DNA from: Streptomyces sp. 130
GTDB lineage: Bacteria; Actinomycetota; Actinomycetes; Streptomycetales; Streptomycetaceae
Reading direction: 5' to 3'
Length of the DNA: 64,000 nucleotides
Assembly: GCF_007096885.1 (NCBI RefSeq)
Contig: NZ_VJNO01000007.1
Span: 1 to 64,000 of the forward strand
Under the pieces are notes generated by a model. That model saw only the letters and a program-made list of their open reading frames with translations. It was not told the origin of the DNA and did no database searches. Below are positions 1 through 59,534 of the stretch, piece by piece. Made by a program: the position numbers and the translations under genes. Position 1 is the stretch's first letter, and every line of letters starts with the position of its first letter.

Positions 1-150
<150 letters not shown>

Positions 151-45138: not shown

Positions 45139-46035
45139 ATGGAACTGCGCCACCTCGCCGCCTTCCTCGCCGTGGCGGAGGAACTGCACTTCGGCCGCGC
45201 CGCCAAACGGCTCCGGATGGCGCAGCCGCCGCTGAGCCAGCAGATCCGCCGCCTGGAGAAGGAGCTCGGCGTCCAGCTCTTCGAACGCAACACCCGCTCG
45301 GTGCGGCTCACCAGCGCGGGCGAGGCCTTCCTCCAGCCGGTGCGGACCGTGCTGGACGACCTGGACACGGCGGTACGGGCCGCGAGGGCGGCCGGAAAGG
45401 GCGCCTACGGGAGGGTGCGCATCGGCTTCGCGGGCGCGTCCAGCCACGAGACGCTGCCGCTGCTCACCCGCGCGGTGCGGGCCGCCCACCCGGGCATCGA
45501 GCTCGTGATGACCGGCCAGACCTACGCCGACGTGGCGCTCGCCCGGGTCGCGGACGGCTCGCTCGACCTGGGGTTCGTCCGGCTCCCGGTGACGCGGCCG
45601 GGCGTGAGCTGCCGGGTGATCGACGAGGAGGAGCTGGTGTGCGCGCTGCCCCTGGACCACCCGCTCGCCGGACGCGCCAAGATCCCGCTGGACGCGCTGG
45701 CCGGGGAGCCGTTCGTCGCCTTCCCCGCCAACACCGGCTCCACCGTGCGGGACGCGATGACCGAGGCGTGCGAGGCGGCCGGGTTCACCCCGCGCGTGGT
45801 GCAGGAGGCGCCGGACTCCTACACCATCCTGGCGCTGGTCGCGGCGGGCGTCGGGGTGACGCTGACCGTCACCTCCGTCCAGCACATCCAGCTCAGCGGC
45901 CTGGTCTACCGCCCGCTCGCCGGGCCGCCGATCCGCCGGCAGCCGGCGCTCGCCTGGCGGACGGACAATCCGTCGGCCGCCCTGCGCGCGGTGCTCGCCG
46001 TCGCGGAACGGGCGCTGCCGACACCGGCCCGCTGA
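45139..46035 (+). CDS. LysR-family transcriptional regulator
   Basis: 298 residues. The N-terminal winged HTH is very typical (MELRHLAAFLAVAEELHFGR; QPPLSQQIRRLEKELGVQLF), and the effector domain begins near 90 (GRVRIGFAGASSHETLPLL). It likely regulates itself and the divergent 3-hydroxyacyl-CoA dehydrogenase, as such pairs usually do. Its stop is 1 bp from the end of the convergent ATP-grasp gene. Confidence 0.9.
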   Translation: MELRHLAAFLAVAEELHFGRAAKRLRMAQPPLSQQIRRLEKELGVQLFERNTRSVRLTSAGEAFLQPVRTVLDDLDTAVRAARAAGKGAYGRVRIGFAGASSHETLPLLTRAVRAAHPGIELVMTGQTYADVALARVADGSLDLGFVRLPVTRPGVSCRVIDEEELVCALPLDHPLAGRAKIPLDALAGEPFVAFPANTGSTVRDAMTEACEAAGFTPRVVQEAPDSYTILALVAAGVGVTLTVTSVQHIQLSGLVYRPLAGPPIRRQPALAWRTDNPSAALRAVLAVAERALPTPAR

Positions 46036-46036
46036 C

Positions 46037-47020
46037 TCACCGGCCCCGGCCCGCCCCCAGGAAGGCGAGCAGGCTGACGGCCGCCGGACGGGCGTCGCCC
46101 ACGGCGGCCCGGTGGAGGTCCCGCACGGTCCGTACGACGGCCCGGGTCACCACGTCCTCACCGGCCTTGCGCTCGTACCAGTGCCAGTCGCCGTGGGCGT
46201 TCATCTCCAGGAACACCGGCTCCCCCCGGGCCCAGAGGAAGTCGAACGCCCCGTAGACGGCGCCGGTCTCCCGGGCCAGGGCGCGCGCCGCCGAGACCAC
46301 GGCCTCCGGAGGCCGGACCCGCCGTACGCGCACCTCGTCGGGGCGGGTCCAGATGTCCTCGGGACGCTCCTTGGCCACCTCGAAGGCGTGCGCTTCGTCC
46401 CCGGCGACGTAGACCCGGTACTCGGCGTCGTGCTCGACGTACTCCTGGACCACCACCGGTGTGGAGCGGGGGAGCCCCGGCACACCGGCGAGCCGGTCGC
46501 GGTCCAGGACCCGCGGCAGGTACCAGGCGAGCCGGCCGGGCGCCGGCTCCACGTAGTGCCGGTCGAGGACCTTGAGCACGTACCGCCCGGCGGGCAGCAG
46601 CCCGGCCGCGTCCGCGGGGTCGGTGGTGACCAGTCCGCGCGGGACGCGCACGCCGAGCGCCCGCGCCCGGTCCAGCTGCGCCGGCAGCCCCGGGTCGGCC
46701 GCGCCGATGGCGGCCGGGGAGGCCAGGGCCAGCTGCCGGGCCAGCGCGTCCCACGCGTCCCGGTACACCATCCGCCCGCCGGCCGGCCCGGACAGCGGCG
46801 CGGCCCGCGGCGAGAAGTGGCGCAGCCAGGTCACCGACGGGGCGAACCGGTGTCCGTCCAGGCCCAGGATGCCGTCCGGCCCCAGGACCGCCCGGACGTC
46901 CGCCAGGCCGTCCGCGTCGAGCCGGTGCACCGGCACACCGATCCGCCGCAGCAGGCCGGCCGCCTCGGCGGCCTCCCGGTCGCCGCGTCTGCTGAGGAGC
47001 AGGACGCACCGCTCAGCCAT
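46037..47020 (-). CDS. ATP-grasp protein resembling graspetide (RimK-like) ligases
   Basis: 327 residues. The central and C-terminal parts show the RimK-type ATP-grasp pattern: YVLKVLDRHYVEP, VVVQEYVEHDAEYRVYVAGD, GAFDFLWARGEPVFLEMNAHGDWHWYE. The last block closely resembles the LE-x-N-x-x-G-x-W motif of ligases that make macrolactam or macrolactone links in graspetides. The N-terminal domain (ERCVLLLSRRGDREAAEAAG) also fits. It is the last gene of the five-gene minus-strand operon and overlaps the GAF gene by 8 bp. The precursor at 52278 has no Lys, so only ester or amidation chemistry on it would be possible. Substrate unknown. Confidence 0.75.
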   Translation of the reverse strand: MAERCVLLLSRRGDREAAEAAGLLRRIGVPVHRLDADGLADVRAVLGPDGILGLDGHRFAPSVTWLRHFSPRAAPLSGPAGGRMVYRDAWDALARQLALASPAAIGAADPGLPAQLDRARALGVRVPRGLVTTDPADAAGLLPAGRYVLKVLDRHYVEPAPGRLAWYLPRVLDRDRLAGVPGLPRSTPVVVQEYVEHDAEYRVYVAGDEAHAFEVAKERPEDIWTRPDEVRVRRVRPPEAVVSAARALARETGAVYGAFDFLWARGEPVFLEMNAHGDWHWYERKAGEDVVTRAVVRTVRDLHRAAVGDARPAAVSLLAFLGAGRGR

Positions 47021-47567
47021 GGGTCGGGGCCAGCAGTGATTCCGCCATCGCCAGGAGCCGCAGCGCCTTGTCGGAACGGTTGCTGGGCTCGGCGGCGCGC
47101 AGCCGGGTGAGGAGTTCCAGGCCGATCGCGGCCTGGTCGGCCAGCAGCCCGAGCAGTTCGACGTCGGCCATCTCCCGTACGCCGCCCGCCCCCCGGTCCA
47201 GCACCTCCAGGACCCCGACGCACTCGTCGTCGCCGAACAGCGGGGCGGCCATGATGCTGTCGGGCACGTACCCGGTGGAGGCGGCGGCCTCCCCCGAGAA
47301 GTGCCGCGACTCGCGCAGGTCGTCGACGAGCATCGACTGCCCCGAGGCGGCGACCCAGCCGGCGATGCCGGTCCCCGCCGGGAAGCGGGTGCCGACGAGC
47401 CGGCCGTCGCCCTCCCCGGCCACGGCCTCGAAGACCAGGTCGCCGGTCCCGGGATCGATGAGGAAGATCGAGGAGGCCGCCGCGCCGAAGGCGTGGCGCG
47501 CGACTTCCACGACGGACTGCAGCAGGCGGCGCTCCACGGGCGTCGCGGCGTCAACGGGTTTCGTCAT
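47013..47567 (-). CDS. GAF-domain protein
   Basis: 184 residues occupied almost entirely by one GAF domain (LQSVVEVARHAFGAAASSIFL; GIAGWVAASGQSMLVDDLRE; SIMAAPLFGDDECVGVLEVLD), with no output domain. The ATG has GGAGG 5 bp upstream. It overlaps the subtilase gene by 17 bp and the ATP-grasp gene by 8 bp, so it must work in their pathway, perhaps as a sensor or scaffold. The GAF ligand cannot be predicted. Confidence 0.82.
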   Translation of the reverse strand: MTKPVDAATPVERRLLQSVVEVARHAFGAAASSIFLIDPGTGDLVFEAVAGEGDGRLVGTRFPAGTGIAGWVAASGQSMLVDDLRESRHFSGEAAASTGYVPDSIMAAPLFGDDECVGVLEVLDRGAGGVREMADVELLGLLADQAAIGLELLTRLRAAEPSNRSDKALRLLAMAESLLAPTHG

Positions 47568-48426
47568 GCGCACCTCCAAGTCGACCGGCGGTGTTCCCGG
47601 CGCAGAGGAACAGCACCGTCTTCAGCTGGAACGGCGTGAGCCAGGGGTGCTTGCCGAGGATCAGCGCGCACAGGCCCGAGATGTGCGGCGCGGCGAAGCT
47701 GTTGCCGGTCGAGCGGATGGTGCCGCCACCGGGCCAGGCCACGGGCACGCGTACCCCGCGCGCGTGGAACTCCACGGGCGGCGAGGGGTTGTAGTAGTAC
47801 GTCATCGGGTCGTCCTCGTCGTGGCTCGCCACGGAGATCACCGAGGAGAACGACCAGGGATAGCTGGGCACCGGCCGGTTGTGCGCGGAGACGACGAGCA
47901 CGCACCGGCGGAAGTAGGCCCGGTCCGCGAGCTCGTGGAGCCGCGCGGTCAGGGCGGGCCGGGTCGTCGCCAGACTCAGGTTGATGACGTCGAAGTCCTG
48001 CTCGATGGCCCACGCGAGACCGGCGATCAGGGCCGGACCGCTGCCGGTCTTGCCGTCGGTCAGCACCTGGACGGACGAGAGCGAGACCCCCGGTGCGACG
48101 GACCGGATCACCCCGGCGCAGGCGGTGCCGTGTCCGGCGCGGTCGGTGGCCGCGCACGGCACCATCTCCACCTCGCCGCTCTCGTCCGGCACGGCCGTCA
48201 CGGCGAGGTCGACCGGGCCGACCAGCGGATGGCCGCCCTCGACCCCGCTGTCCACGACGCACACCCGGACCCCGGTACCGTCGGCGCCGCCCCACGCCCA
48301 CTCGGGCGAGACCGACTCCATGGGGACGGACGAGAACCCCGCCGCCGTCTGCTCCCTGGTCGCACCCCAGGCCGGGACACCCGGGGTGTAGGGCCTCGGC
48401 GGCCGTCTCCAGGGCGGATCGCTCAT
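47551..48426 (-). CDS. Cytoplasmic S8-family serine peptidase of the RiPP-like locus
   Basis: 291 residues with a complete catalytic set: D59 (VVDSGVEGG), H99 (AGHGTACAG), oxyanion N183 (SAHNRP) and S243 (GNSFAAPHISG). There is no signal peptide and no I9 propeptide, so it should act inside the cell. It is coupled to the cyclase gene (4-bp overlap). Leader-peptide removal from the precursor at 52278, or cleavage of the regulator tail, are the natural hypotheses, unproven. The GNS variant of the usual GTS around the nucleophile is unusual. Confidence 0.88.
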   Translation of the reverse strand: MSDPPWRRPPRPYTPGVPAWGATREQTAAGFSSVPMESVSPEWAWGGADGTGVRVCVVDSGVEGGHPLVGPVDLAVTAVPDESGEVEMVPCAATDRAGHGTACAGVIRSVAPGVSLSSVQVLTDGKTGSGPALIAGLAWAIEQDFDVINLSLATTRPALTARLHELADRAYFRRCVLVVSAHNRPVPSYPWSFSSVISVASHDEDDPMTYYYNPSPPVEFHARGVRVPVAWPGGGTIRSTGNSFAAPHISGLCALILGKHPWLTPFQLKTVLFLCAGNTAGRLGGAHDETR

Positions 48427-51400
48427 CGGTCCTCCTCCAGCTCGGCCAGCCACGCCCGCACCGTCCGGGCGGGGAGCACGGCCTCCTTCGCCGTCAGCGC
48501 GGCCAGCGCGCGCCCGGCCGCGTGCCGCGCCCGCGCCTTCTCGCCCGCCGCGTCCAGCACCAGGGCCGCCTCGGACCAGACGTCACCGATGAGGCACGGG
48601 TCGTCGGTGCCGTCCAGGGCGGCGACGGCGCGTTCGGCGTCCCCGACCGCCTCCCCGTACGCCCCGGCCCGCGCCCGCACCCGGGCCCGCAGGGCCAGCC
48701 GGACGGCCCGGGTACGCGCCTCCGCCACCGGGTGGGCGGGCGGCTCGGTGAGTTCGGGCGCGTCGAGGAGGGCGTCGGACCCGGCGCGGAACCGCTCGCG
48801 GGCCGCGTACAGCCGCAGGGTGGCCGCGGTCCGGGCCTGCCCCAGAGCGGCCAGCCCGTCCGCCGCCGCCGTGTAGTGGCCGGCCGCCGCCGGGTGGGCG
48901 CCGGCCAGGGACTCCACGAACCCCGCCGTCTGGTCGGCCGCCAGTGCGCCGAGGGCCAGCGCCAGGTCGTCGCAGTGGACGCGGACCCGCGCGACGTCCT
49001 CGCGGGCCGCGTCCACCCGGTCCGACAGGGCCAGGTGCCGTGCCCGGGTCAGCAGGACGGGCACGAGGAGACTCCGGTCCGCGTCGAACCGCCGGACCAG
49101 GTCCTCGCAGAGCGCGATGGCCTGCCCGAGCGGGGTCGGTGACCACTGCGTCAGCTCGCAGATCGACGCCAGGATGCGGTTCGCCTCATAGGTGTCGCCG
49201 AGCCGGCGCGCCCGGGACAGCGCGTCGCGCATGGCGCCCTCCGCCGCACCGAGCCGGCCCTCGGCGAAGCTCCGCAGCGAGGACAGCTGATGCAGCCTGC
49301 ACCAGCTCAGGTCGTCCGCCGCACCCGGCTGGGCGTCTTCGGCACCCGGTCCGTACGGGGCGCCGGCGGGCCCCGGTCCGCCCGACCGCAGGGCGATCAG
49401 CTGCCGCAGGATGGCGCAGGTGTCCCGGGTCGGCACGTCGTCGGCGCTTCTGCGTTCCGCCTCGGCCACGGCCCGCCGGGCGCCGTCCCAGCGGCCCAGC
49501 GCGGCATACGCGTCGGTGATGCGGGCGGCCAGCACCCGGTGCTGGGGGTCGCCGTCCGGGGTGAGGCCGCGCCCGCGCTCCATCAGGGAGAGGGCGGCGG
49601 GCAGGTCGCGCCACTGCAGCGCCCGGTATCCGGTGGCCACCAGGGCCCGGGCCGCGCGGCCGGTCAGCGCGGGCAGCCCGGGGTCCCCCGGGTCCGCCTC
49701 GGACAGCAGCCGGCACGCGGACTCCAGGTGGTGGGCGAGGTCGCCCTCCGCGGCCGGGCGCGGCGTCCGCCCGTCGAGCCGGTCGGCGAGCACGGTGTGC
49801 CAGGCCGCCCGCCGGGCCTTCGACGTCATCTCGTACAGGGTGTCCCGGGCCAGCGCGCGGGTGAACCGGTAGCTGCCGGGCGGTCCGTCCAGGTGGATCA
49901 CCCGGGAGCGCAGCAGCCGGGTCAGCGCCTCGTCCAGGGCCCCGCCGGACAGGGCCGGTTCGTCGTCGGCGAGCGCGCGCACGTCCCCGGCCGTGAACGA
50001 CCCGCCCACCCCCGCCGCCCGTTCCAGCACGGCCCGGTCGGTGGCCGGCAGCCGGTCCAGCCAGGCGGTCAGCAGGACCCGGACCGATGTGGGGACGCCC
50101 TGGTCCACCGCCCGGGGACCGGACAGGTTCTCCAGCAGCAGTTCGGCGAAGAGCGGATTGCCGTCGCACTCCCGGACGACCCGGGCCAGCTCGTCGTCGG
50201 TGGCGACCGCCTCCTGCGCCGCGACCTCCGCCCGGTCCGCGAGCAGCCCCACCAGCCGCTCGGTGGCGGCGCGGGGCAGCGGGTCGAGGTGCAGCACGAG
50301 GTCGCCGCCGGACGGCGCCGCCGCCTCGTTCCTGGCCACCCGCACGACCAGCACCCGTGCGTCCCGTATCCCCTCGCACAGATCGGCGACCATGTCGGCC
50401 AGCGTCGGCTGGGCCCACTGGAAGTCCTCCAGGACCAGGATCACGGGGGCGCTCCGGCCGAGGGCCTCCAGCAGGCGCCGGAACGCCCAGCCGATCTCCT
50501 CGACGCTCACCGGGAGCCCGTCCCCGGAGCGGACGCCCAGGGCCGTGGCGAGGGCGGTGACGGCGCGGTCGGCGCTCGGGCGCAGCGTCTCCAGCGCGCT
50601 GCGGGCCTGTTCCCAGCCGCCGGGCAGCGACCAGACCGCGTCGGCCAGCGGACGGTGGGCGAGCCCGGCACCGTACGCCTGGCAGCCGGCCCGCAGCACG
50701 ACGGTCCCCTCCGCGCCGTGCCTCGCCAGGAACTCCCGTACCAGGCGGGACTTCCCGATGCCCGAGGGGCCGGTGACCGTGACGGGACGGCTGCGGCGCT
50801 CGCGGCGGACCGCCTGGAACTCGCGCAGCAGCGCGGCCAGATCGGCGTCCCGGCCGACGAGGGGCACCAGATCCTCCTGGCCCGTGGACTCGGCGACCGA
50901 GAGGGCCCGCCAGGCGGCGACCGGTTCGCGCTTCCCCTTCACCCGCAGCGGGGCGACGGCCTCCAGGCGGACCCGGCCGCCGACGAGCCCGGCCGTCTCC
51001 GCGCCGATCAGGATCTCGTGCGGCCCGGCGTGCGACTGGAGGCGGGCGGCGGTGTGCACGACGTCGCCGACGACCCTCGCCGCCCCGCCGAGCACCCCCG
51101 CCACCACGGCCTCTCCCGAGGCGATCCCGCAGTGGATGTCCAGCCGCACCCCGGGACCGGTCGCGATGGCCGCCACGGACTCGCGGACGGCGCAGGCCGC
51201 CCGGACCGCGTGCAGCGCGTCGTCCTCACGGGTGACGAACGCCCCGAAGACGGCCATCACCGCGTCACCGATGAACTTCTCGACCACCCCGCCGTGTTCG
51301 GTGACGGCCGTGGTGCAGGCCCGGTAGTAGCGGTCCATGGTGCGCCGCAGCGCCTCCGGGTCCAGGGTCTCGGCCAGCACGGTCGAGCCGACGAGGTCGA

Positions 51401-51536
51401 TGAAGACCGCCGTGACGATTCTGCGGCTGTCCGACGACGCCACCCCCGCGACCACCGGTGTGCCGCACTCCGGGCAGAACCGGGCCCCGTCCGGCACCGC
51501 GGCCCGGCAGCCGCCGCACCGCGCGGCACCGTTCAC
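48423..51536 (-). CDS. Class III nucleotide cyclase / AAA ATPase / TPR protein
   Basis: 1037 residues. A zinc ribbon (C7, C10, C21, C24) is followed by a class III cyclase domain with metal-binding D47 (VFIDLVGST) and D91 (FIGDAVMAVFG), then GDVVHTAARL. An AAA/STAND-like ATPase domain starts near residue 220 with Walker A VTGPSGIGKSRL and Walker B VILVLEDFQW. The C-terminal half is TPR-like helical repeats. Such proteins are signalling hubs; a second messenger is possible but several family members are inactive. The GTG overlaps the HTH gene stop (GTGA), so they are coupled. Confidence 0.88.
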   Translation of the reverse strand: MNGAARCGGCRAAVPDGARFCPECGTPVVAGVASSDSRRIVTAVFIDLVGSTVLAETLDPEALRRTMDRYYRACTTAVTEHGGVVEKFIGDAVMAVFGAFVTREDDALHAVRAACAVRESVAAIATGPGVRLDIHCGIASGEAVVAGVLGGAARVVGDVVHTAARLQSHAGPHEILIGAETAGLVGGRVRLEAVAPLRVKGKREPVAAWRALSVAESTGQEDLVPLVGRDADLAALLREFQAVRRERRSRPVTVTGPSGIGKSRLVREFLARHGAEGTVVLRAGCQAYGAGLAHRPLADAVWSLPGGWEQARSALETLRPSADRAVTALATALGVRSGDGLPVSVEEIGWAFRRLLEALGRSAPVILVLEDFQWAQPTLADMVADLCEGIRDARVLVVRVARNEAAAPSGGDLVLHLDPLPRAATERLVGLLADRAEVAAQEAVATDDELARVVRECDGNPLFAELLLENLSGPRAVDQGVPTSVRVLLTAWLDRLPATDRAVLERAAGVGGSFTAGDVRALADDEPALSGGALDEALTRLLRSRVIHLDGPPGSYRFTRALARDTLYEMTSKARRAAWHTVLADRLDGRTPRPAAEGDLAHHLESACRLLSEADPGDPGLPALTGRAARALVATGYRALQWRDLPAALSLMERGRGLTPDGDPQHRVLAARITDAYAALGRWDGARRAVAEAERRSADDVPTRDTCAILRQLIALRSGGPGPAGAPYGPGAEDAQPGAADDLSWCRLHQLSSLRSFAEGRLGAAEGAMRDALSRARRLGDTYEANRILASICELTQWSPTPLGQAIALCEDLVRRFDADRSLLVPVLLTRARHLALSDRVDAAREDVARVRVHCDDLALALGALAADQTAGFVESLAGAHPAAAGHYTAAADGLAALGQARTAATLRLYAARERFRAGSDALLDAPELTEPPAHPVAEARTRAVRLALRARVRARAGAYGEAVGDAERAVAALDGTDDPCLIGDVWSEAALVLDAAGEKARARHAAGRALAALTAKEAVLPARTVRAWLAELEEDR

Positions 51537-52057
51537 AGGAGCTTGATGTCCTGTCCCTCCACCTCACCGGAGACCGCTTCCAGCCGCTCCTTGACGGAGT
51601 TGAGGACCTGGACCTCTTGCTCGCTGAGCGCCGAGAGGACCGAGCGCTGCTCCACCGCCAGCAGGTCCACCGGGTGTCCGGCCTCACGCAGTGCGTGCAG
51701 GGCGTCGAAGGTCATGGCTACCGGTACCTCGTTCCCGTAGTGCGGCCAGTCGAGGGTGACGCCGGCCGGTTTGATCGAGCACTCCGCGACCGCCGCCGCG
51801 AGGGCGTCGACGGCCTCGGGGGCCTCCTGCCGCTTCCGCTCGTCGGCGGGCAGCGGCGGCCAGATCCCCTGGACCAGAACGCCCTGGGCGTACAGCCGCG
51901 CAATCATTTCCGTACGGTTGGACGCGCCCGTTCTTCGGAGCATGTTGCATAAGTGAGCCGCTACCGTGTGCGGGCTGATGCAGAGAGCTTCGGCGATATC
52001 CCGGTTCGAGTAGCCGGCGGCCACGAGCGAAGCGATCAGAATCTCACGCCTGGTCAA
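51533..52057 (-). CDS. LuxR-type HTH protein with precursor-like C-terminal domain
   Basis: 174 residues. A LuxR/GerE HTH occupies the very N-terminus (residues 1-60: LVAAGYSNRDIAEALCISPH, then TVAAHLCNMLRRTG). A linker follows, then residues 120-169 align without gaps to residues 6-55 of the peptide precursor at 52278, with 30 of 50 identical (shared AGxPVDLL, RLxAVS, VEGQ). The tail ends DIKLL without the precursor's core or Cys. The start is TTG with AGGGG 8-9 bp upstream; an in-frame stop excludes an earlier start. It heads the minus-strand operon and probably senses or is processed with the peptide system. Confidence 0.88.
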   Translation of the reverse strand: MTRREILIASLVAAGYSNRDIAEALCISPHTVAAHLCNMLRRTGASNRTEMIARLYAQGVLVQGIWPPLPADERKRQEAPEAVDALAAAVAECSIKPAGVTLDWPHYGNEVPVAMTFDALHALREAGHPVDLLAVEQRSVLSALSEQEVQVLNSVKERLEAVSGEVEGQDIKLL

Positions 52058-52277
52058 ACCCTTTACCCCTCATTTCGGTGAGCAAAGCATGGGCCGGCAG
52101 GGGGATTTCCTCACTCCCGGGGTCAGAGTAGCTGCGGGTCATGTTCCGGACAAGAACGCCTTGAGCGGGATCTCTCACGCACCGATTCATAGTCGATCGA
52201 GGGATGTGAACCCGGGGGGCGCCGGAGCAGCCTTGCCGTTGCACCAGCCCGTGACCGTCTCCACGAAGGAGTGACCC
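52058..52277. promoter_or_regulatory. Divergent promoter region of the RiPP-like locus
   Basis: This 220-bp region separates the HTH operon from the precursor operon. It contains an imperfect dyad around CCCGGG at 52110-52128 (CTC...GAG arms, six of nine pairs) and a CATAGT -10-like hexamer near 52185-52190 for the plus-strand operon. The HTH protein is the obvious candidate to bind here. No gene is seen within it. Confidence 0.4.
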
Positions 52278-52475
52278 ATGTCGCAAGCACCCCTCGACGC
52301 GCTGCGCAGCGCCGGCACCCCGGTCGACCTGCTGTCGGACTCCGAGCGCGAGGTCTTCAACGCCCTCAGCCCGGACGAGGTCGCGGTCCTCGGCTCGATC
52401 CAGGCCCGGCTCAACGCCGTGTCGGCCGCGGTCGAGGGCCAGGTGAACGACAACCAGGTCAACGTTCTCTGCTGA
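52278..52475 (+). CDS. Putative RiPP precursor peptide
   Basis: 65 residues with an ideal AAGGAG at 52266-52271, 6 bp before the ATG. Residues 6-55 form an acidic, helical leader-like region (DALRSAGTPVDLLSDSER; ALSPDEVAVLGSIQARL). The final residues GQVNDNQVNVLC are Asn-rich and end in C65. There is no signal peptide and no Lys. It is followed by a hairpin, then radical SAM, flavoprotein, exporter and B12-radical SAM genes, the usual company of a modified peptide. The leader is paralogous to the C-terminus of the divergent HTH protein. The class is unknown to me; the leader is not nitrile-hydratase-like or lanthipeptide-like. Confidence 0.82.
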   Translation: MSQAPLDALRSAGTPVDLLSDSEREVFNALSPDEVAVLGSIQARLNAVSAAVEGQVNDNQVNVLC

Positions 52476-52488
52476 TCCCGGCTCTGAC

Positions 52489-52516
52489 GGGTCCGGCGGC
52501 ACCGGCCGCCGGACCC
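52489..52516 (+). terminator. Hairpin between the precursor and radical SAM genes
   Basis: GGGTCCGGCGGC (52489-52500) pairs perfectly with 52505-52516 around the loop ACCG, 13 bp after the precursor stop. No T-run follows. It fits a partial terminator or RNA-stabilising stem that makes precursor mRNA exceed that of the enzymes. Confidence 0.6.
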
Positions 52517-52572
52517 GGCGGAGACGAGGCGCCCGACCGCCGTGCGTCCGGACACCCAGTGGGAGCGTGATG

Positions 52573-53934
52573 ATGGACCGAGTCAGCAGATACCTGGTGC
52601 TGAGCGACCGCGCGTACGCCGACGCCACCGGCGTCCCGGTGCGGCTCGCGTACAGCACCCGCACCGCGAGCACCGTCGCGGTCGACCTCCCCACCGCGCG
52701 GGCACTGGAGGCCGGCGACGCCGCCGCGCTGGCCCCGGCCTGGACCGGCGCCCTGCGCGCGGCCCAGCTGCTGGTCCCGGCCGGCGAGGACGAGCTGTCC
52801 GCCGTGCTCGACCGCAACCGGCGCGCCTCGGCGGACCGTTCGGCGGTGCACATCGCCCTGCTGCCGACCTCCTACTGCAACATGGGCTGCGCCTACTGCG
52901 GCCAGGAGCACACCCGGGGCGGCCTCTCCCGCGACCACCGCGACCGGGTGCGCGACCGCGTGCTGCGCGCCGTGACCGCACCGCGGACCCGCAGCGCCCG
53001 CATCGACTGGTTCGGGGCCGAACCGATGATGGGCTACGCGGTCATCCGCGACCTCGCCCCGCGGTTCGTCGCCGCCGCCGCCGAGCACGGCGTCGCCTAC
53101 TCCTCGGTGATCGTCACCAACGGCTCCCTGCTCACCGCCGCGAAAATCAACACGCTCATCCGCTCCTGCGGTGTCACCCATTTCGAGATCACGATCGACG
53201 GGCCGCCGGACATACACAATGAACACCGGCCACTGAAAAGCGGGCGCGGATCTTTCTGGAACATCGTGCGCGCGGTGCGTGCCGTGCTCGACGAGCCCGA
53301 TCTCGGCCCGGCCCATTTCTCCTTCCGGACGAATGTCGATGTGCACAACCAGGACGCCGTGCCCCGCTATGTCGAGCTGATGGCGGAGCTGGGATTCAGT
53401 CATCCGCGCGTCTCCTTCTCGATCCGTCCCGTGCACTCGTGGGGAAACGACGTATCGGCGATCGAGGTGTCCAAACAGAACTTCGCCGAACGCGAGACGG
53501 GCTGGCTCAGGCTGCTCACCGGTCACGGGCTGCACACACAGCTGCTGCCGACCGACGTGCACAAGGTCCTGTGCCCCGCCACGACCCGCTCGTCCGAGAT
53601 CATCAGCAGCACCGGCAACATCTTCTCGTGCAGCGAGTACCCCCTCGTTCCCGAGGCCGAGCGCACCCTCGCGCTGACGCACATCGACCGGGCGGGCACC
53701 GAACCGGTCCGGCCGCTGGGCCCCTTCGACGGCTGGAACGACGAGATCGCCGAGGGCACCACCTGGTGCAAGGGCTGCGTCTTCATGCCCACCTGCGGCG
53801 GCTCCTGCCCCAAGGCGTGGCAGGAGGGGCACCCGCCCTGCCCCTCCTACAAGTACAACGTCCAGGACCGGTTCGACCTCATCGCCGCCGAATGCGGTCT
53901 GCGGGTGGCCGGTGAGCCCGCCGGAGCCCGGTGA
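52573..53934 (+). CDS. Radical SAM/SPASM-domain peptide maturase
   Basis: About 453 residues. The SAM-cluster motif is LLPTSYCNMGCAYCGQEH, a canonical CX3CX2C at C102, C106 and C109. The barrel follows (IDWFGAEPMMGY; ITIDGPPDIHNEHR). The C-terminal SPASM region holds the auxiliary-cluster cysteines (TTWCKGCVFMPTCGGSCPKA, then PPCP). Such enzymes install thioether, C-C or epimer modifications on peptides whose leader they recognise. GTG 52567, ATG 52570 and ATG 52573 are all open; GGGAG at 52561-52565 best suits 52573. It overlaps the flavoprotein gene. Confidence 0.9.
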   Translation: MDRVSRYLVLSDRAYADATGVPVRLAYSTRTASTVAVDLPTARALEAGDAAALAPAWTGALRAAQLLVPAGEDELSAVLDRNRRASADRSAVHIALLPTSYCNMGCAYCGQEHTRGGLSRDHRDRVRDRVLRAVTAPRTRSARIDWFGAEPMMGYAVIRDLAPRFVAAAAEHGVAYSSVIVTNGSLLTAAKINTLIRSCGVTHFEITIDGPPDIHNEHRPLKSGRGSFWNIVRAVRAVLDEPDLGPAHFSFRTNVDVHNQDAVPRYVELMAELGFSHPRVSFSIRPVHSWGNDVSAIEVSKQNFAERETGWLRLLTGHGLHTQLLPTDVHKVLCPATTRSSEIISSTGNIFSCSEYPLVPEAERTLALTHIDRAGTEPVRPLGPFDGWNDEIAEGTTWCKGCVFMPTCGGSCPKAWQEGHPPCPSYKYNVQDRFDLIAAECGLRVAGEPAGAR

Positions 53935-54527
53935 TGACGGCGGAGACCGGCCCGGACGCCCCGCGCCGGCTGCTCATCGGCGTCTGCGGCTCGGGCAACG
54001 TACTCGCCGTGCCGCAGTACCTCATGGCCCTGCGCACCGGCCTCGGACCCGGCGTCGAGATCCGTATGGCCATGACCCGCTCCGCCGCCGCGCTGATCCC
54101 GGCCGCGACCATGCGGCTGCTGTGCCGGGACGTGTACTGCGACGGCGAGGACGAGCTGACGACCGGTCATGTCGCCCCGGCCGTCTGGGCGGACCGGTTC
54201 GTCGTCCTGCCCGCCACCGCCAACATGCTCGGCCAGGCGGCCAACGGCCTCGCCTCCGGACTCCTCAGCTCCGCACTGCTCGCCCATGAACGCCCGGTGG
54301 TGTTCTTCCCGAGCATGAACAGCCTGATGTGGCAGCGCCCGGCCGTCCGCCGCAACGTGGACCGGCTGCGCGCGGACGGCCACGCCGTCGTGGACCCGGT
54401 GCCCGCGGCCGGCTGGCAGATCGCCGCGGGAGACGTACGCAAGAACCTCGGGCTGCCGCCGCCCGCCACCGTGACGGCGGTGATCGGCGAGTTCCTGGAC
54501 ATGCCGGTCGGCCCGCTCGGCGGCTGA
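53931..54527 (+). CDS. EpiD/LanD-like flavoprotein decarboxylase
   Basis: 198 residues of the HFCD family (homo-oligomeric flavin-containing Cys decarboxylases). FMN-binding LLIGVCGSGNVLAVP comes first, the catalytic His is H80 (TTGHVAP), the VLPATANMLGQAANG motif covers 92-106, and the PxMNxxMW substrate clamp is PSMNSLMW with N130. Relatives such as EpiD and CypD oxidatively decarboxylate a C-terminal Cys of a peptide, and the nearby precursor ends in Cys. A role in coenzyme A synthesis is unlikely since the synthetase half of Dfp is absent. The start overlaps the upstream stop (GTGATG). Confidence 0.88.
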   Translation: MMTAETGPDAPRRLLIGVCGSGNVLAVPQYLMALRTGLGPGVEIRMAMTRSAAALIPAATMRLLCRDVYCDGEDELTTGHVAPAVWADRFVVLPATANMLGQAANGLASGLLSSALLAHERPVVFFPSMNSLMWQRPAVRRNVDRLRADGHAVVDPVPAAGWQIAAGDVRKNLGLPPPATVTAVIGEFLDMPVGPLGG

Positions 54528-54553
54528 GCACCCACCCAGCAGAAGGAGAAGAC

Positions 54554-55894
54554 GTGGCAGCGGCCGGACAGCGGCTCCGTACGGCACTGACGGGCGGACC
54601 CATGTCCGTGCGCGGCTTCCGGCTGCTGCTCGCCGGACAGCTCTCCTCCACGGTCGGCGACTACTGCTACGCCGTCGCGCTGCCCTGGCTGATCCTCTCC
54701 GGCGACGGCGGCCCGGTCCTGCTCGGCACGGTCCTGGCCTGCTACGGCATCCCCCGCGTCGTCACCATCCCGCTGGGCGGGGTGGTGGCCGACCGGATCG
54801 GCGGCCGACGAGTCATGCTCATGACCGACCTGGTGCGCGCCGCGGCCGTCGGCCTCCTCGCGGTGCTCGCCTCGGCCGGGACGCCGACGCTGGGCCAGCT
54901 CGCCCCCATCGCCGTCGTCCTGGGCGCCTGCTCCGGGATGTTCATCCCCGCCTCCTACACCCTCCTGCCCGCCCTGCTGCGCAAGGAGGACCTCGGCCGG
55001 GGCAACGCCCTGTCGACCATGGTCAACCAGGTCGGCGGACTCCTCGGCCCCACCGCGGGCGGCGCCCTGGTGGCCGCCTTCGACGCCGGCCCGGCGCTCA
55101 CGGTCGACGCCGCGTCCTTCCTCGTCTCGGCGCTGGTCCTCGCCCGGATACGCACCGGCGCGGACGCGCCCGAACACGACGGCCCCGACGCCGCCGACGA
55201 GGCCCCGGCCCGCAAGGTGACCTTCCCGGAACTGCTGCGCCACGGAAGGCTGCTGCACGTCGTCCTCGTGGTGGCCCTCGTCTGCAACCTGGCCTTCAAC
55301 GGCACGATCGAGGTGGCGCTGCCGGAACTGGCCCACCAGGGCATGGGCGCCACCGGCTACGGAATCCTGCTGACCTGCCTGAGCCTGGGCGGGCTGGCCG
55401 GCTCCCTGGTCGCCGCCCGCAGCCGTCCGGTGCGGTCGCCCGCCTACCTGTTCGCCACGCTCGCGGTCGTCATGGGCATCGCCCTGGCCGCCGTCCCGTA
55501 CGCCGGGGGGCTGGCCGGCGCCGCGGTGTGTGTCTGCGTGTACGCCCTGGCCAGCGGCTGGCAGAACATCGTCGTGGTCACGATGCTCCAGGTCTGGGCA
55601 CCGTCCGCGCTCATCGGCCGGGTCATGAGCCTGGTCATGCTGGCCGTCATGGGCACCTTCCCGGTCTCCGTCGCGGTGGCCGGCTTCGGGGTGCGCCACC
55701 TCGGCGCGGCCCCCTTCTTCCCGGTGGCGGGCGGGGCCATCGCCCTCACCGTGCTGGCCGCGCTCACCCAGCGGGTGTTCCGCGAGCACCGCGCCGACAC
55801 CGAGTACGCCCCACCGGTCGCCGTACCGGCCGGGGCCCCGGCCGCCCGCTCCACGCATCCGGCGCGGGACAACAGTCAGGAGTCACAGCGATGA
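54554..55894 (+). CDS. MFS transporter (putative peptide exporter)
   Basis: 446 residues with about 12 membrane segments, of the MFS_3/enterobactin-exporter type (FRLLLAGQLSSTVGDYCYAV; LGGVVADRIGGRRVMLMTDL is the loop 2-3 motif; SLVMLAVMGTFPVSVAVAGF late). The GTG has AAGGAG 5 bp upstream. Placed between maturation enzymes and overlapping the next gene (ATGA), it probably exports the mature product and gives self-protection. Confidence 0.9.
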   Translation: MAAAGQRLRTALTGGPMSVRGFRLLLAGQLSSTVGDYCYAVALPWLILSGDGGPVLLGTVLACYGIPRVVTIPLGGVVADRIGGRRVMLMTDLVRAAAVGLLAVLASAGTPTLGQLAPIAVVLGACSGMFIPASYTLLPALLRKEDLGRGNALSTMVNQVGGLLGPTAGGALVAAFDAGPALTVDAASFLVSALVLARIRTGADAPEHDGPDAADEAPARKVTFPELLRHGRLLHVVLVVALVCNLAFNGTIEVALPELAHQGMGATGYGILLTCLSLGGLAGSLVAARSRPVRSPAYLFATLAVVMGIALAAVPYAGGLAGAAVCVCVYALASGWQNIVVVTMLQVWAPSALIGRVMSLVMLAVMGTFPVSVAVAGFGVRHLGAAPFFPVAGGAIALTVLAALTQRVFREHRADTEYAPPVAVPAGAPAARSTHPARDNSQESQR

Positions 55895-58095
55895 GCGTCT
55901 TCGTCCCGTTGGGCATGGAGCGGTTGAAGAACGCCCCCGGCCACGGCGGCCCGCGGCCCGGGCGGGGCACCGGCGACACCGCGTACCTGCTGGTCAACCC
56001 GCCGGTGACCGACCCGACGACCGCCTACCACTCGATCCCGTACCTCGTGGGCGCCGCCAGGGCGGCCGGCCACACCGAGTACGCCTGCGTGGACGCCAAC
56101 CTCGACGCCTTCACCTATCTCGCCGACCCCGCGCGCTTCGGCGCCGCGCTCACGGCCGCCCGCGCCCTGCGCGCCGAGATCGAGGCGAGGTCCGGCGCCC
56201 CCCGCCGGTACGACGAGATCCGCTACCGGCAGGCGCTGGCCGCCGAGGGGCTGACCGCCACCTCGGCGCGCGACGCGATCCGGGTGTTCCAGGACCCCGA
56301 GGACTTCTACCACCCGCCGACCTACGCGCAGGCGGTCGCGGTGACGAGCCGGTGGTGGGAGCTGATCGCCCTGGAGATGCCGCCCGGCGCGGCGGACGGC
56401 TTCTCGATGCGGGTGAAGTCCGCCGTCAACCTGTGCAGCACCGCGGACCTGTCCGACCCCGCGGTCCCGGCCGCCGTGGCCCGCCCCTTCGAGGGGTACT
56501 TCGCCGACGAGTTCGTCCCGAAGCTGCGCGAACGCCCCTGGGCAGTGGTCGGGCTCTCGGTCAACTACACCAGCCAGCTGCCCGTCGCCCTGCGGATGGC
56601 CCGCCTGATCCGGACCGTGCTGCCCGACACGGTGATCGTCTTCGGCGGCACCGAGGTCGGCGACGTGGTCAAGTACGCCACCGACCCGGCGGCGGCGTGG
56701 CGGGTCTTCCAGGACGCGGACCTGATCGTTCCGGGCGAGGGCGAGGGCGCCCTCATCGGCATCCTGGACGCCGTCGGGAACGGCGCGGTCCGGGGCGGTG
56801 ACGCCTTCGAGGGCATCGGCGGCGTGATGACCCGGAGCCGCCCGGACCCCGTCATCGCGTACAGCAGCGTGGCGACGCCCGAAACCCCGGCGTACGACGT
56901 GTGGGACTGGGACCGGTACTGGTCGCCCGAGCCGGTGATCCTCTACAGCCCGACCCGGGGGTGCTACTGGAACAAGTGCACCTTCTGCGACTACGGCCTC
57001 AACACCGACCGGCCGACCTCGCCCTCGCGGGAACGCCCCGTGGAGGCCGTCCTCCAGGACCTGCGGGAGGTGAGCCGCTACGGCAGGACGCTCTACTTCG
57101 CGGTGGACGCCATGTCCCCCCGCTATCTGCGCACCCTCGCCGCCGCCCTCGCCGAATCCTCCCTGGACCTGCGGTGGTCCGCCGAACTGCGGCTGGAGCG
57201 GACGTTTCCCAAGCGCGCCGTCGGTGAACTCCTCGCGGCCTCCGGCTGCGTCGCGGTCTCCTTCGGCTACGAGTCGGGCAGCCAGCGGGTCCTCGACCTC
57301 ATCGACAAGGGGGTGCGGATCGACGCCGTGCCGGACGTCCTGGCCGAGCTGGCGCGCCACGGCATCGCCGCGCAGATGATGGGCTTCACCGGCTTCCCCA
57401 CCGAGACCCGCGACGAGGCGCTGGAGACGTACGAGTTCCTCCAGCACCACGAGAAGCTGTGGACGACCGCGGGCATCGGCCTGTTCGCGCTGACCCCCGG
57501 CTCCATCGTCGCCAAGGACCCCGCCCGGTTCGGCATCGAACTCCTGCCGACCTCCGCCTCCGACGACATCCGGCGCTATGTGCCCTGGCGCGACCGCGCG
57601 TCCGGCGAGGTGCACTGGCCGGAGGCCGAGGACCCCCGCGTCCCGCGCGAACACAGCGCCGGCTTCCGCAGGACCAGCTTCGACCGGCCCTTCGTCGGCG
57701 GCATCGACGCCGCGCACACCCTGCTGTACCACGCCCGCTTCGGCCGGGGGCTGCTGCCCGAGACCCCCGACGGCCCGGGCCGCGACGACCAGCCCCGCGT
57801 CCGCCTGGTCGAGGAACCGGTCGTGACCATCCCCTTCGCCTCCGTCGAGGGGCTTACCGGCGTGGGCGACCTGCTGGCGCAGGTCAGCCGGCGCAGCCGG
57901 GCGCACCTGGACACCACGTCCGGCGGTTACGCGGAATGGCTCGACGGCACCGGTACGGCCCGGCCCGGTTCCTGCGGGGTCCTGGTCCTCGCCCACGGCG
58001 ACCTCGTCGAGGTGCCCGCCGGCGTGGACTTCGGCGCCGACAACGCGGTGACCCGGGCCCTGCGCCTGATGCTCGCGACACAGGCCCGCGCCTGA
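55891..58095 (+). CDS. Cobalamin-binding radical SAM protein
   Basis: 734 residues. The N-terminal Rossmann-like B12-binding region is visible (VGLSVNYTSQLPVALRMARL; VIVFGGTEVGDVV), without the classic DxHxxG base-off motif. The radical SAM motif TRGCYWNKCTFCDYGL has Cys at 358, 363 and 366, that is CX4CX2C, one residue longer than the standard CX3CX2C. Barrel motifs follow (YFAVDAMSPRYL; VSFGYESGSQRVLDLIDKGV). The C-terminal 180 residues are unfamiliar. Relatives methylate unactivated carbons or cleave or crosslink peptides. ATG 55891 overlaps the MFS stop and has AGGAG 8 bp upstream. Confidence 0.87.
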   Translation: MSVFVPLGMERLKNAPGHGGPRPGRGTGDTAYLLVNPPVTDPTTAYHSIPYLVGAARAAGHTEYACVDANLDAFTYLADPARFGAALTAARALRAEIEARSGAPRRYDEIRYRQALAAEGLTATSARDAIRVFQDPEDFYHPPTYAQAVAVTSRWWELIALEMPPGAADGFSMRVKSAVNLCSTADLSDPAVPAAVARPFEGYFADEFVPKLRERPWAVVGLSVNYTSQLPVALRMARLIRTVLPDTVIVFGGTEVGDVVKYATDPAAAWRVFQDADLIVPGEGEGALIGILDAVGNGAVRGGDAFEGIGGVMTRSRPDPVIAYSSVATPETPAYDVWDWDRYWSPEPVILYSPTRGCYWNKCTFCDYGLNTDRPTSPSRERPVEAVLQDLREVSRYGRTLYFAVDAMSPRYLRTLAAALAESSLDLRWSAELRLERTFPKRAVGELLAASGCVAVSFGYESGSQRVLDLIDKGVRIDAVPDVLAELARHGIAAQMMGFTGFPTETRDEALETYEFLQHHEKLWTTAGIGLFALTPGSIVAKDPARFGIELLPTSASDDIRRYVPWRDRASGEVHWPEAEDPRVPREHSAGFRRTSFDRPFVGGIDAAHTLLYHARFGRGLLPETPDGPGRDDQPRVRLVEEPVVTIPFASVEGLTGVGDLLAQVSRRSRAHLDTTSGGYAEWLDGTGTARPGSCGVLVLAHGDLVEVPAGVDFGADNAVTRALRLMLATQARA

Positions 58096-58307: not shown

Positions 58308-59534
58308 GTGCCCGACGCCCTCGATGTCGTGATCTGCGAACCCCTGCGCACCCCCATCGGCCGCTTCGGCGGGGTGTTCGCCGCGGAGAAGCCGGCCGCC
58401 CTCGCGGCCCGCGTGATCGCCGAGGTCGTCGCCCGGACCGGCATCGACCCCGACCGGGTGGACGAGGTGATCCTCGGCCACTCCTACCCGACTGCGGAGG
58501 CGCCCGCGATCGGCCGGGTCGCCGCCCTGGACGCCGGGCTCCCGCAGTCGGTGACCGGCCTCCAGACCGACCGCCGCTGCGGCTCCGGGCTGCAGGCGGT
58601 CCTGGACGCGGCGATGCAGATCCGGGCCGGGTTCAGCGAGGTCGTCATCGCGGGCGGCGTCGACGTGATGAGCGGCGCCCCGTACTACACGCACGACGGG
58701 CGCTGGGGCATCAAGGGCCCCGGCCTCCAGCTCCACGACGCCCTCGCCCGGGGCCGGGTCACCGCGGGCGGCGTCCGCCACCCGGTGCCCGGCGGCATGA
58801 TCGAGACCGCCGAGAACCTGCGCCGGGCGTACGGGATCAGCCGCGCGGACCAGGACGCGCTGGCCCTGCGCTCGCAGCGGCGGGCGGGGCTGGCCGCCGC
58901 CGAGGGCCGGTACGAGAAGGAGACGGTCCCGGTCACCGTCAGGACCAGGAAGGGCGAAACGGTGGTCTCCGCCGACGAGCACCCCCGCCCCGACACCACC
59001 GCCGAACAGCTCGCCGCCCTCCGCCCGGTCATGCTGAAGTCCGACCCGGAGGCCACGGTCACCGCGGGCAACGCCAGCGGCCAGAACGACGCGGCGGCCG
59101 CCTGTCTGGTGACGAGCGCCGCCACCGCCGAACGCCTCGGCCTCACCCCGCTGGTCCGGCTGGTCTCCTTCGCCCGCGCCGGGGTGCCCGCCGCGACCAT
59201 GGGCCTCGGGCCCGTCCCCGCGACCGAGGCCGCGCTCGGCCGCGCCGGGCTCACCCTCGCCGACCTCGACCTGATCGAGGTGAACGAGGCGTTCGCCGCT
59301 CAGGTCCTGGCCTGCACCCGGGAGATGGGCCTCGGCGAGAAGGACCACGAGGAGCGGATCAACGTGAACGGCTCCGGCGTCTCGCTCGGCCACCCGGTCG
59401 GCGCGACCGGCGCCCGCATCCTCGCCACGCTCACCCGCGAACTGCACCGCCGCGAGGCCCGCTACGGCCTGGAGACCATGTGCATCGGCGGCGGCCAGGG
59501 CCTCGCCGCGGTCTTCGAGCGCGTCGCGCCCTGA
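58308..59534 (+). CDS. Acetyl-CoA acetyltransferase (thiolase)
   Basis: 408 residues. The nucleophilic Cys is in TDRRCGSGLQAV (about residue 89), then VNEAFAAQ, GHPVGATGARI, and the second Cys in MCIGGGQGLAAVFER. It condenses or cleaves acyl-CoA with acetyl-CoA. GTG 58308 follows GGAAAGG. It stands beyond a strong terminator and so is separate from the peptide operon. Confidence 0.93.
   Translation: MPDALDVVICEPLRTPIGRFGGVFAAEKPAALAARVIAEVVARTGIDPDRVDEVILGHSYPTAEAPAIGRVAALDAGLPQSVTGLQTDRRCGSGLQAVLDAAMQIRAGFSEVVIAGGVDVMSGAPYYTHDGRWGIKGPGLQLHDALARGRVTAGGVRHPVPGGMIETAENLRRAYGISRADQDALALRSQRRAGLAAAEGRYEKETVPVTVRTRKGETVVSADEHPRPDTTAEQLAALRPVMLKSDPEATVTAGNASGQNDAAAACLVTSAATAERLGLTPLVRLVSFARAGVPAATMGLGPVPATEAALGRAGLTLADLDLIEVNEAFAAQVLACTREMGLGEKDHEERINVNGSGVSLGHPVGATGARILATLTRELHRREARYGLETMCIGGGQGLAAVFERVAP

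Follow-up and report, generated by a model that had tools for sequence, protein, structure and literature searches.

A ten-gene cluster of Streptomyces sp. 130 as a candidate two-precursor RiPP system with an N-x-[LV]-C peptide and a leader-bearing regulator

Gene content and conservation of the cluster

The window analysed here, a stretch of 64,000 nucleotides from Streptomyces sp. 130, is Streptomyces-like DNA with a GC content of about 0.73, and the named records closest to it are from Streptomyces. At positions 46037..58095 it carries a cluster of ten genes in two divergent operons (Table 1), flanked by a LysR gene (45139-46035) and a thiolase-like gene (58308-59534). The leftward operon encodes an HTH regulator, a cyclase/AAA/TPR protein, a subtilase, a GAF protein and an ATP-grasp enzyme, in that order. 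The rightward operon encodes a 65-aa peptide, a radical S-adenosylmethionine (SAM)/SPASM enzyme, an HFCD flavoprotein, an MFS protein and a B12-radical SAM enzyme. A preliminary description of this DNA had proposed that the ten genes form one system for a ribosomally synthesized and post-translationally modified peptide (RiPP), and the places, strands and families that it assigned were borne out by open reading frame (ORF), Pfam and NCBIfam checks.

The minus-strand genes overlap by 4-17 bp, as described: by 4 nt at the HTH/cyclase and cyclase/subtilase junctions, 17 nt at subtilase/GAF and 8 nt at GAF/ATP-grasp. On the plus strand, where nearly all ends had been said to overlap, this holds for two of the four junctions (SPASM/HFCD, 1-4 nt; MFS/B12, 4 nt), whereas the precursor and SPASM genes are separated by 94 nt, and the HFCD and MFS genes by 26 nt (GTG 54554) or 74 nt (ATG 54602). 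The 65-aa peptide indeed has an ideal ribosome-binding site, GAAGGAG six bases 5' of the ATG, and all eight aligned Streptomyces sequences, that of the window among them, are identical here. TTG is the conserved start codon of the HTH gene. A scan of positions 51900-52700 found no promoter or terminator, and such a scan is hardly informative for Streptomyces. In addition to the matches in Table 1, the cyclase/AAA/TPR protein matches TOMM_kin_cyc (4e-45, below cut-off), and the B12-radical SAM enzyme matches the B12-binding domain (3e-7; 30.9 bits, slightly under the cut-off of 32.1).

Table 1. Genes of the cluster, with their positions in the window
Feature	Position	Strand	Profile match
ATP-grasp ligase, graspetide macrocyclase homologue	46037..47020	-	TIGR04187 4.6e-24, below cut-off
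GAF-domain protein	47013..47567	-	PF13185 9e-17, PF01590 1e-16
Subtilisin-like (S8) protease, candidate leader peptidase	47551..48426	-	PF00082 8e-28
Zn-ribbon/class III nucleotide cyclase/AAA/TPR protein	48423..51536	-	AAA_16 1e-22, Guanylate_cyc 5e-15
LuxR-type HTH regulator with C-terminal leader domain, end GQDIKLL	51533..52057	-	GerE 4e-15
65-aa precursor, leader domain + core, end NVLC	52278..52475	+	NF045560 residues 5-55, 70 bits
Radical SAM/SPASM peptide maturase, N-terminal domain preceding SAM barrel	52570..53934	+	
HFCD flavoprotein, predicted peptidyl-cysteine decarboxylase	53934..54527 (alternative GTG start 53931)	+	PF02441 5e-21
MFS exporter (predicted)	54554..55894, GTG behind GAAGGAG (alternative ATG 54602)	+	PF07690 6e-36
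B12-dependent radical SAM enzyme, predicted C-methyltransferase	55891..58095	+	Radical_SAM 5e-13

When genome contigs were scanned for the SPASM enzyme, 23 loci were obtained, at 94 to 37% identity. The HFCD, MFS and B12 genes are present in all 20 loci where the enzyme is at least 58% identical (the MFS and B12 genes partially in locus L041), and the precursor in 19 of them; the contig of the 20th (L039) starts at the SPASM gene. The hosts of these loci, which belong to several actinobacterial families, are Streptomyces, Streptacidiphilus, Thermoactinospora, Sphaerisporangium, Nonomuraea, Actinoallomurus and an actinobacterial metagenome-assembled genome. L041 is a decayed or misassembled copy, in which the cyclase, ATP-grasp, MFS and B12 genes are shortened without runs of N in the contig, and the precursor, SPASM and HFCD genes are retained.

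Loci from 392 genomes of the window's genus were added, to give 83 fetched loci (L039-L121). A peptide with the leader domain described below and the end N-x-[LV]-C occurs in 24 of these, which correspond to 21 distinct loci (L084, L080 and L083 repeat L043, L049 and L052), and HFCD and B12 genes accompany it in every one of the 24. Among the other 59 loci, 58 have neither an HFCD match nor a B12 match above 300 bits, while the last, L039, breaks off before the precursor is reached. The N-x-[LV]-C peptide is hence accompanied by SPASM, HFCD and B12-radical SAM genes in 21 distinct actinobacterial loci other than the window, and in 20 of the 21 the cyclase gene adjoins this set, whatever the gene order. 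The preliminary description had made its RiPP reading depend on conservation of the precursor alongside the two radical SAM genes, and the precursor is indeed conserved with that pair.

Three gene orders were found. The operons are divergent in Streptomycetaceae, and all genes of L051 run in one direction. The third order, with a divergent B12 gene and the cyclase operon behind the MFS gene, is that of L053, L055-L057 and L060. Retention of both operons through all three orders is the main evidence that they form one system, as had been proposed.

Within the window's genus, HFCD matches above 300 bits occur in six of the 392 genomes. The same six have a SPASM match above 800 bits and both leader-domain copies, while three more genomes have SPASM matches of 491-611 bits. 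Because the HFCD profile at E 1e-20 matches 388 of the 392 genomes, only the gap in score was used (at least 328 bits in the six, at most 181 elsewhere). A search of 394 genomes sampled from the class found, with the SPASM enzyme at E 1e-70, only the window's own, and megablast against a plasmid collection found no copy of the cluster. The cluster of ten genes is real and conserved as a unit, beyond chance.

On balance we lean towards reading the locus as a two-precursor cluster, which would produce a radical-ring, Cys-decarboxylated N-x-[LV]-C peptide together with a leader-bearing LuxR-type regulator modified by the ATP-grasp enzyme. This reading builds on the gene content, a leader domain common to both proteins, invariant Asn(-4) and Cys(-1) in the peptide, invariant active-site residues and the co-occurrence of the genes; the chemistry is predicted.

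The common leader domain and the regulator tail

The model NF045560 (aroma_sacti_dom, cut-off 30 bits) matches not only the precursor, at 70.0 bits, but also the C-terminus of the HTH regulator (residues 118-169), at 69.5 bits. These are its sole two matches in the genome at E 0.001, and precursor and regulator therefore have one leader domain in common. The suspicion that the HTH tail is relevant was thus well placed, as it holds the second copy of the domain. The precursor, by contrast, had been presented as a type not recognised; its leader is a catalogued one, and a wholly unknown precursor type was rejected. In several public records the HTH protein is shorter (often 122-130 aa), is named aroma-sacti and has no precomputed HTH domain.

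Beyond the V-E-G-Q boundary, the precursor continues as V-N-D-N-Q-V-N-V-L-C and the regulator as D-I-K-L-L. The boundary, in the form xxVx[GAP][QH], stands at the aligned place in 52 of 58 distinct leader-domain ends (L039-L121). Five of the six misses are StsA-associated tails with V-W-A-H a few residues later, and in the sixth F replaces V. Proportions of nonsynonymous (pN) and synonymous (pS) differences were calculated for the 11 precursors of equal length only, others being left out. They were 0.076/0.193 for the leader, and pN 0.213 vs pS 0.210 for the ten-residue core, where the count is small. By this measure the leader evolves under constraint and the core is unconstrained, which is usual for RiPPs.

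The tail [DE]xK[LV]L is found in 32 of 33 database relatives of the regulator, with the acidic residue kept in 32 and the Lys in all 33. Streptomycetaceae, L051 and the StsA-like loci have the HTH part; in L053, L055-L057 and L060 it has been lost, and the protein consists of leader and tail only. The conserved element is the tail protein rather than DNA binding, and the regulator is likely a second precursor or substrate. Its predicted structure is poor beyond the HTH part (mean pLDDT 63, about 49-68 at residues 111-160), and the model of the leader part was not used.

The ATP-grasp enzyme combines homology to graspetide cyclases with their catalytic residues. Its profile best matches AMdnB (7m4s, 87 bits), 5ig8 (81 bits) and CdnC (79 bits) in the PDB, K150, E200, R202, K217, D260, E272 and N274 are invariant in 14 aligned rows, and E193 is missing in one of 25. 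Among loci with S8 and GAF genes inside the fetched stretch, the ATP-grasp gene is present in all 24 (23 distinct) that have a protein with the leader domain and the end [DE].K[LV][LM], and in none of the 47 that lack one. This count leaves out four tail loci without ATP-grasp (L043, L049, L080, L084), L041 with its partial ATP-grasp gene, and six loci without a tail (L039, L058, L059, L079, L103, L118); L061 scored as ATP-grasp without tail solely because its tail, GHEVKVF, lies beyond the locus end. That tail (L129, at the place of L061) and GHELKLV in L128 are further tails with an ATP-grasp gene nearby. Both features also occur near StsA-like CAC peptides (L074, L085-L089) and in L128, a locus in which neither a SPASM set nor an N-x-x-C precursor was seen. 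Since the ATP-grasp gene is found with another precursor type or none, it follows the tail, not the core. The preliminary description had included it in one RiPP system with the precursor; the gene tracks the HTH tail rather than the precursor.

L128 lies in Sphaerisporangium melleum, on another contig of the L054 genome. Its tail protein, cyclase, S8, GAF and ATP-grasp genes adjoin a SARP-like gene, and this module is separate from the N-x-[LV]-C cluster, which is on another contig.

We propose that the ATP-grasp enzyme would form an Asp/Glu-to-Lys amide, or a different ligation, on the regulator tail [DE]-x-K-L-L, and that the modified tail, with the cyclase/AAA/TPR and GAF proteins, would couple expression to the state of the pathway. 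Alternatively, the leader domain of the regulator might serve as a sensor only, binding the maturase or protease in the precursor's stead and reporting shortage while the tail stays unmodified. A leader domain common to both proteins, the single intergenic region of the divergent operons in the window, and tail hydrophobic residues that are conserved as much as the charged ones are all consistent with a sensor. We nevertheless consider it somewhat unlikely, as it leaves unexplained both the association of ATP-grasp with the tail and the loss of the HTH part with the tail retained in the loci of the third gene order. A further extension of the two-precursor reading is that one leader code routes two proteins to two ring chemistries, an Asp/Glu-Lys ring on the final five residues of the regulator and a radical-made aminovinyl-thioether ring at the N-x-[LV]-C end of the precursor, which would couple maturation to gene control; we put this forward tentatively, as a rather unlikely possibility.

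The cyclase/AAA/TPR, subtilase and GAF genes are a common module of the NF045560 leader family. Among the 79 leader-domain loci fetched, the cyclase occurs in 77 and S8 plus GAF in 71, and the eight without the latter pair are all, except L079, cut short or ending near the gene. The S8 triad (D59, H99, S243) is present in all 72 matched stretches, and cyclase residues D47, D91 (metal Asp) and K87 and the P-loop GK in all 76. Of the loci fetched, 46 have all three genes and neither the HFCD nor the B12 enzyme. The combination of genes had been called unrecognised; this part of it is common in the leader family, while the remaining combination was not found described.

The minus-strand module could also be a signalling or conflict system in its own right, which came to be joined to the peptide cluster by happenstance. 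Those 46 loci would fit such an origin, as would the L128 module, which adjoins a SARP-like gene without SPASM, HFCD or B12 genes, the six loci with the module near StsA-like CAC peptides, and partial PADLOC matches to a Pycsar cyclase and subtilase (at most 56 bits). It appears doubtful, however, because the cyclase adjoins the SPASM/HFCD/B12 set across gene orders in 20 of the 21 distinct loci, and because the key protein of the module shares both the leader domain and its V-x-G-Q boundary with the precursor. An anti-phage system was rejected, as PADLOC gave partial matches only.

The N-x-x-C end and its predicted modification

All 14 database relatives of the precursor end N.[LV]C. In 16 distinct cores, position -1 is always Cys and position -4 always Asn, position -2 is Leu (12) or Val (4), and position -3 is variable (Val 7, Cys 6, Asn 1, Ser 1, Thr 1). 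Ten of the 16 cores have a single, C-terminal Cys. In L056 and L060 (Actinoallomurus), two N-x-[LV]-C precursors with differing cores stand in tandem.

Cys-terminal ORFs were sought within 1.6 kb upstream of eight distant relatives of the SPASM enzyme (33-51% identity). Four loci have a peptide with an N-x-x-C end and a purine-rich ribosome-binding site: L143 (MDETLTTTTDIGEPDEHVNIAC, with an HFCD gene adjoining the SPASM gene), L059 (MSTLTTTTTKQAEADVIVNGSC), L058 (51 aa, end ILNNIC, 1.2 kb upstream of the SPASM gene) and L153 (on a plasmid; 33 aa, end LNGNC). None of these four matches NF045560 or a custom leader profile. The L155 peptide is Cys-terminal but has its Asn at -3, and no Cys-terminal peptide was found within 1.6 kb upstream in L078, L061 and L154; the L078 enzyme is accompanied by a leader-domain peptide ending GVVW. 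As only 2 of 3749 background ORFs end in NxxC, the chance of at least four such loci in eight is about 2e-7, calculated post hoc. A tree of 18 SPASM enzymes sets the three that lack a Cys-terminal peptide apart from the 15 that have one, at 94/91 support, slightly below the tree's own mark of 95/80. Because the SPASM enzyme is the common factor of these loci, its substrate site is most likely the terminal N-x-x-C.

The peptides of L059 (9853-9921, starting MSTLTTTTT) and L143 (2450-2518, starting MDETLTTTT), each of 22 aa and adjoining a SPASM enzyme, may be the smallest members of the N-x-x-C class. On the plasmid of Streptomyces sp. NBC_01281 (L153), the N-G-N-C peptide is followed by SPASM, class I methyltransferase, SagB-type dehydrogenase and MFS genes, that is, by different tailoring enzymes on the same end motif.

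The SPASM enzyme carries the CxxxCxxC motif and auxiliary-cluster Cys, and the core contains Cys, as expected for sactipeptide or ranthipeptide enzymes. It scores 181 bits against the maturase model TIGR04463 (under the cut-off of 525), and the structure nearest to its predicted model is the thioether enzyme 5why. The HFCD profile has its best PDB match in the mersacidin decarboxylase MrsD (6e-53), and H79, PATA and MNxxMW are invariant in 14 rows. An HFCD with its active-site His thus accompanies a precursor with C-terminal Cys, as in aminovinyl-cysteine RiPPs. Cys 358, 363 and 366 of the B12 enzyme are invariant in 13 rows, and it matches TIGR03975, the RiPP maturation radical SAM C-methyltransferase, at 1e-23 (83.6 bits, under the cut-off of 281.85).

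In the proposed pathway, the SPASM enzyme would bind the leader and link the thiol of Cys(-1) to Asn(-4), after which the MrsD-like HFCD would oxidatively decarboxylate the C-terminal Cys to give an aminovinyl thioether ring without a dehydratase. This ring would have the i/i+3 spacing of the aminovinyl thioether rings of cypemycin and epidermin. The B12-radical SAM enzyme would C-methylate the core, the S8 protease, predicted to be cytosolic, would cleave near the common E-V-E-G-Q boundary, and the MFS protein would export the finished product.

The plus-strand operon might instead yield a Cys-decarboxylated peptide without a Cys-Asn ring. In that case the SPASM enzyme would bring about oxidation, epimerisation or rearrangement in the Asn/Val region, and the finished peptide would end in the HFCD enethiol or its reduced form. 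Indeed, TigE and anSME match the SPASM model nearly as well as the thioether enzyme does, the HFCD family includes phosphopantothenoylcysteine (PPC) decarboxylases, which stop at the thiol, and the best NCBIfam match of the HFCD is TIGR00521 coaBC (93 bits, below cut-off). Yet Asn(-4) and Cys(-1) are conserved jointly, including in the four peptides without leader. Moreover, PPC decarboxylases have a Cys-containing reductive flap, the conserved Cys of which is absent from the HFCD alignment, and the nearest solved relative, MrsD, is an aminovinyl-forming enzyme. A product without the ring therefore seems quite unlikely. Very improbable, and rejected, is a mixed graspetide in which the ATP-grasp enzyme acts on the NxLC precursor: common cluster and leader domain and graspetide-cyclase homology would permit it, but acidic residues are entirely lacking from some cores (GNLINSLC, SNNNTVC, MNKNNCLC), and the enzyme occurs with another precursor type (L074, L085-L089) or where no precursor was found (L128, L129), always alongside a [DE]xK tail.

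Known systems and the wider leader family

The leader domain NF045560 is also that of the StsA/StsB sactipeptides (NF045559, NF045574), and StsA-like peptides likewise have nearby an HTH protein with a DLKLL tail, ATP-grasp, cyclase, subtilase and GAF genes. StsA and StsC appear in PMC12710340. Unlike StsA, the window precursor has no CxC core, scores 25.7 bits against NF045559 (cut-off 75) and has one C-terminal Cys. Unlike StsB, the SPASM enzyme does not have NF045574 (cut-off 625) among its best 25 of 43 families, the last of which scores 29 bits, and no separate PqqD-like gene is among the ten of the window. The positive control L074 scores 129.9 bits with NF045559 and 885 bits with StsB (NF045574). 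The StsA-like loci, of which L074 was tested by family models and L085-L089 were assigned by their CAC peptides, differ from the window cluster in having no HFCD match and no strong B12 match. The cluster was rejected as a StsA sactipeptide because it fails both NF045559 and StsB.

The aminovinyl-cysteine RiPPs (epidermin, mersacidin, cypemycin and thioamitides) resemble the window peptide in their C-terminal Cys, an HFCD nearest MrsD and, as predicted here, a partner residue four from the end. In the window the partner would be Asn rather than Ser, Thr or Cys, with two radical SAM enzymes instead; no lanthionine synthetase, kinase/lyase or dehydratase is among the Pfam and NCBIfam matches listed for the ten cluster proteins. 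The CteB-type sacti- and ranthipeptide maturases (5wgg, 5why) have the same combination of SPASM and N-terminal domain and are the best fold match, but identity is about 15%, and the Cys donor of the window peptide would follow its partner. Graspetide cyclases (AMdnB, CdnC, 5ig8/5ig9) have the same conserved catalytic residues as the window ATP-grasp, whose predicted substrate, in contrast, is a near-invariant five-residue regulator tail and not a diversified core. The AGGALF-ending aroma-sacti clusters of Streptomyces have the leader domain, cyclase/AAA/TPR, S8, GAF and often MFS genes in common with the window; they differ by an aromatic core end, another radical SAM family, and the lack of ATP-grasp, HFCD or strong B12 matches.

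The leader-domain ends of L062-L121 (n=73) comprise 41 AGGALF, 10 other F/W, 11 [DE]xK, six CAC-type and five N-x-[LV]-C ends, and 15 of the first 20 of these loci have another radical SAM family in common (two members tested by Pfam). NF045560 is above cut-off in 64 of the 392 genomes of the window's genus, and the window cluster is a rare sub-class of the family (6 of 392). The NCBI-named aroma-sacti leader family is hereby sorted into sub-classes by core end and partner enzymes.

The term 'aroma-sacti' was not found in the searchable papers, subscription papers and supplements lying outside the search. Titles and abstracts revealed no RiPP with radical SAM, HFCD and B12 enzymes and no leader-bearing regulator, although supplementary tables may list the family. 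Hence, the leader family is catalogued, while the sub-class, its core signature and the leader-bearing regulator are not described in the searchable literature. We know of no earlier case of a DNA-binding regulator with a RiPP leader that serves as substrate of a RiPP enzyme; if this holds true, the link between maturation and regulation becomes directly testable. Likewise, the proposed ring would mean that bacteria can build the C-terminal aminovinyl-thioether ring of known antibiotics by radical chemistry, without a dehydratase, and its four-residue signature, N-x-x-C at the extreme end, would be searchable in any genome.

Several further features were seen in the wider family. In L074 and L085-L089, the ATP-grasp, DLKLL-tail leader-domain HTH, cyclase, subtilase and GAF genes lie about 11 kb from the StsA-like CAC peptides, and L074 also has StsB and a PqqD-like protein. 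L130 (Sphaerisporangium melleum) has two divergent StsA-like CAC peptides less than 1 kb apart. A class III lanthionine synthetase-like family occurs near the leader-domain clusters of L062, L064, L065, L070 and L077; the one member scanned, that of L062, scores 893 bits with NF038151.

Window positions 1-150 contain long poly-C/G runs that resemble an assembly artefact. The 3-hydroxyacyl-CoA dehydrogenase-like gene at 43437-44999 and the flanking thiolase-like gene suggest, by eye, acyl-CoA or aromatic catabolism. LysR and thiolase genes also flank the cluster in L040, L044, L045 and L046, and neither was found in L042, L048, L050 and L052, so that the cluster is placed at different sites.

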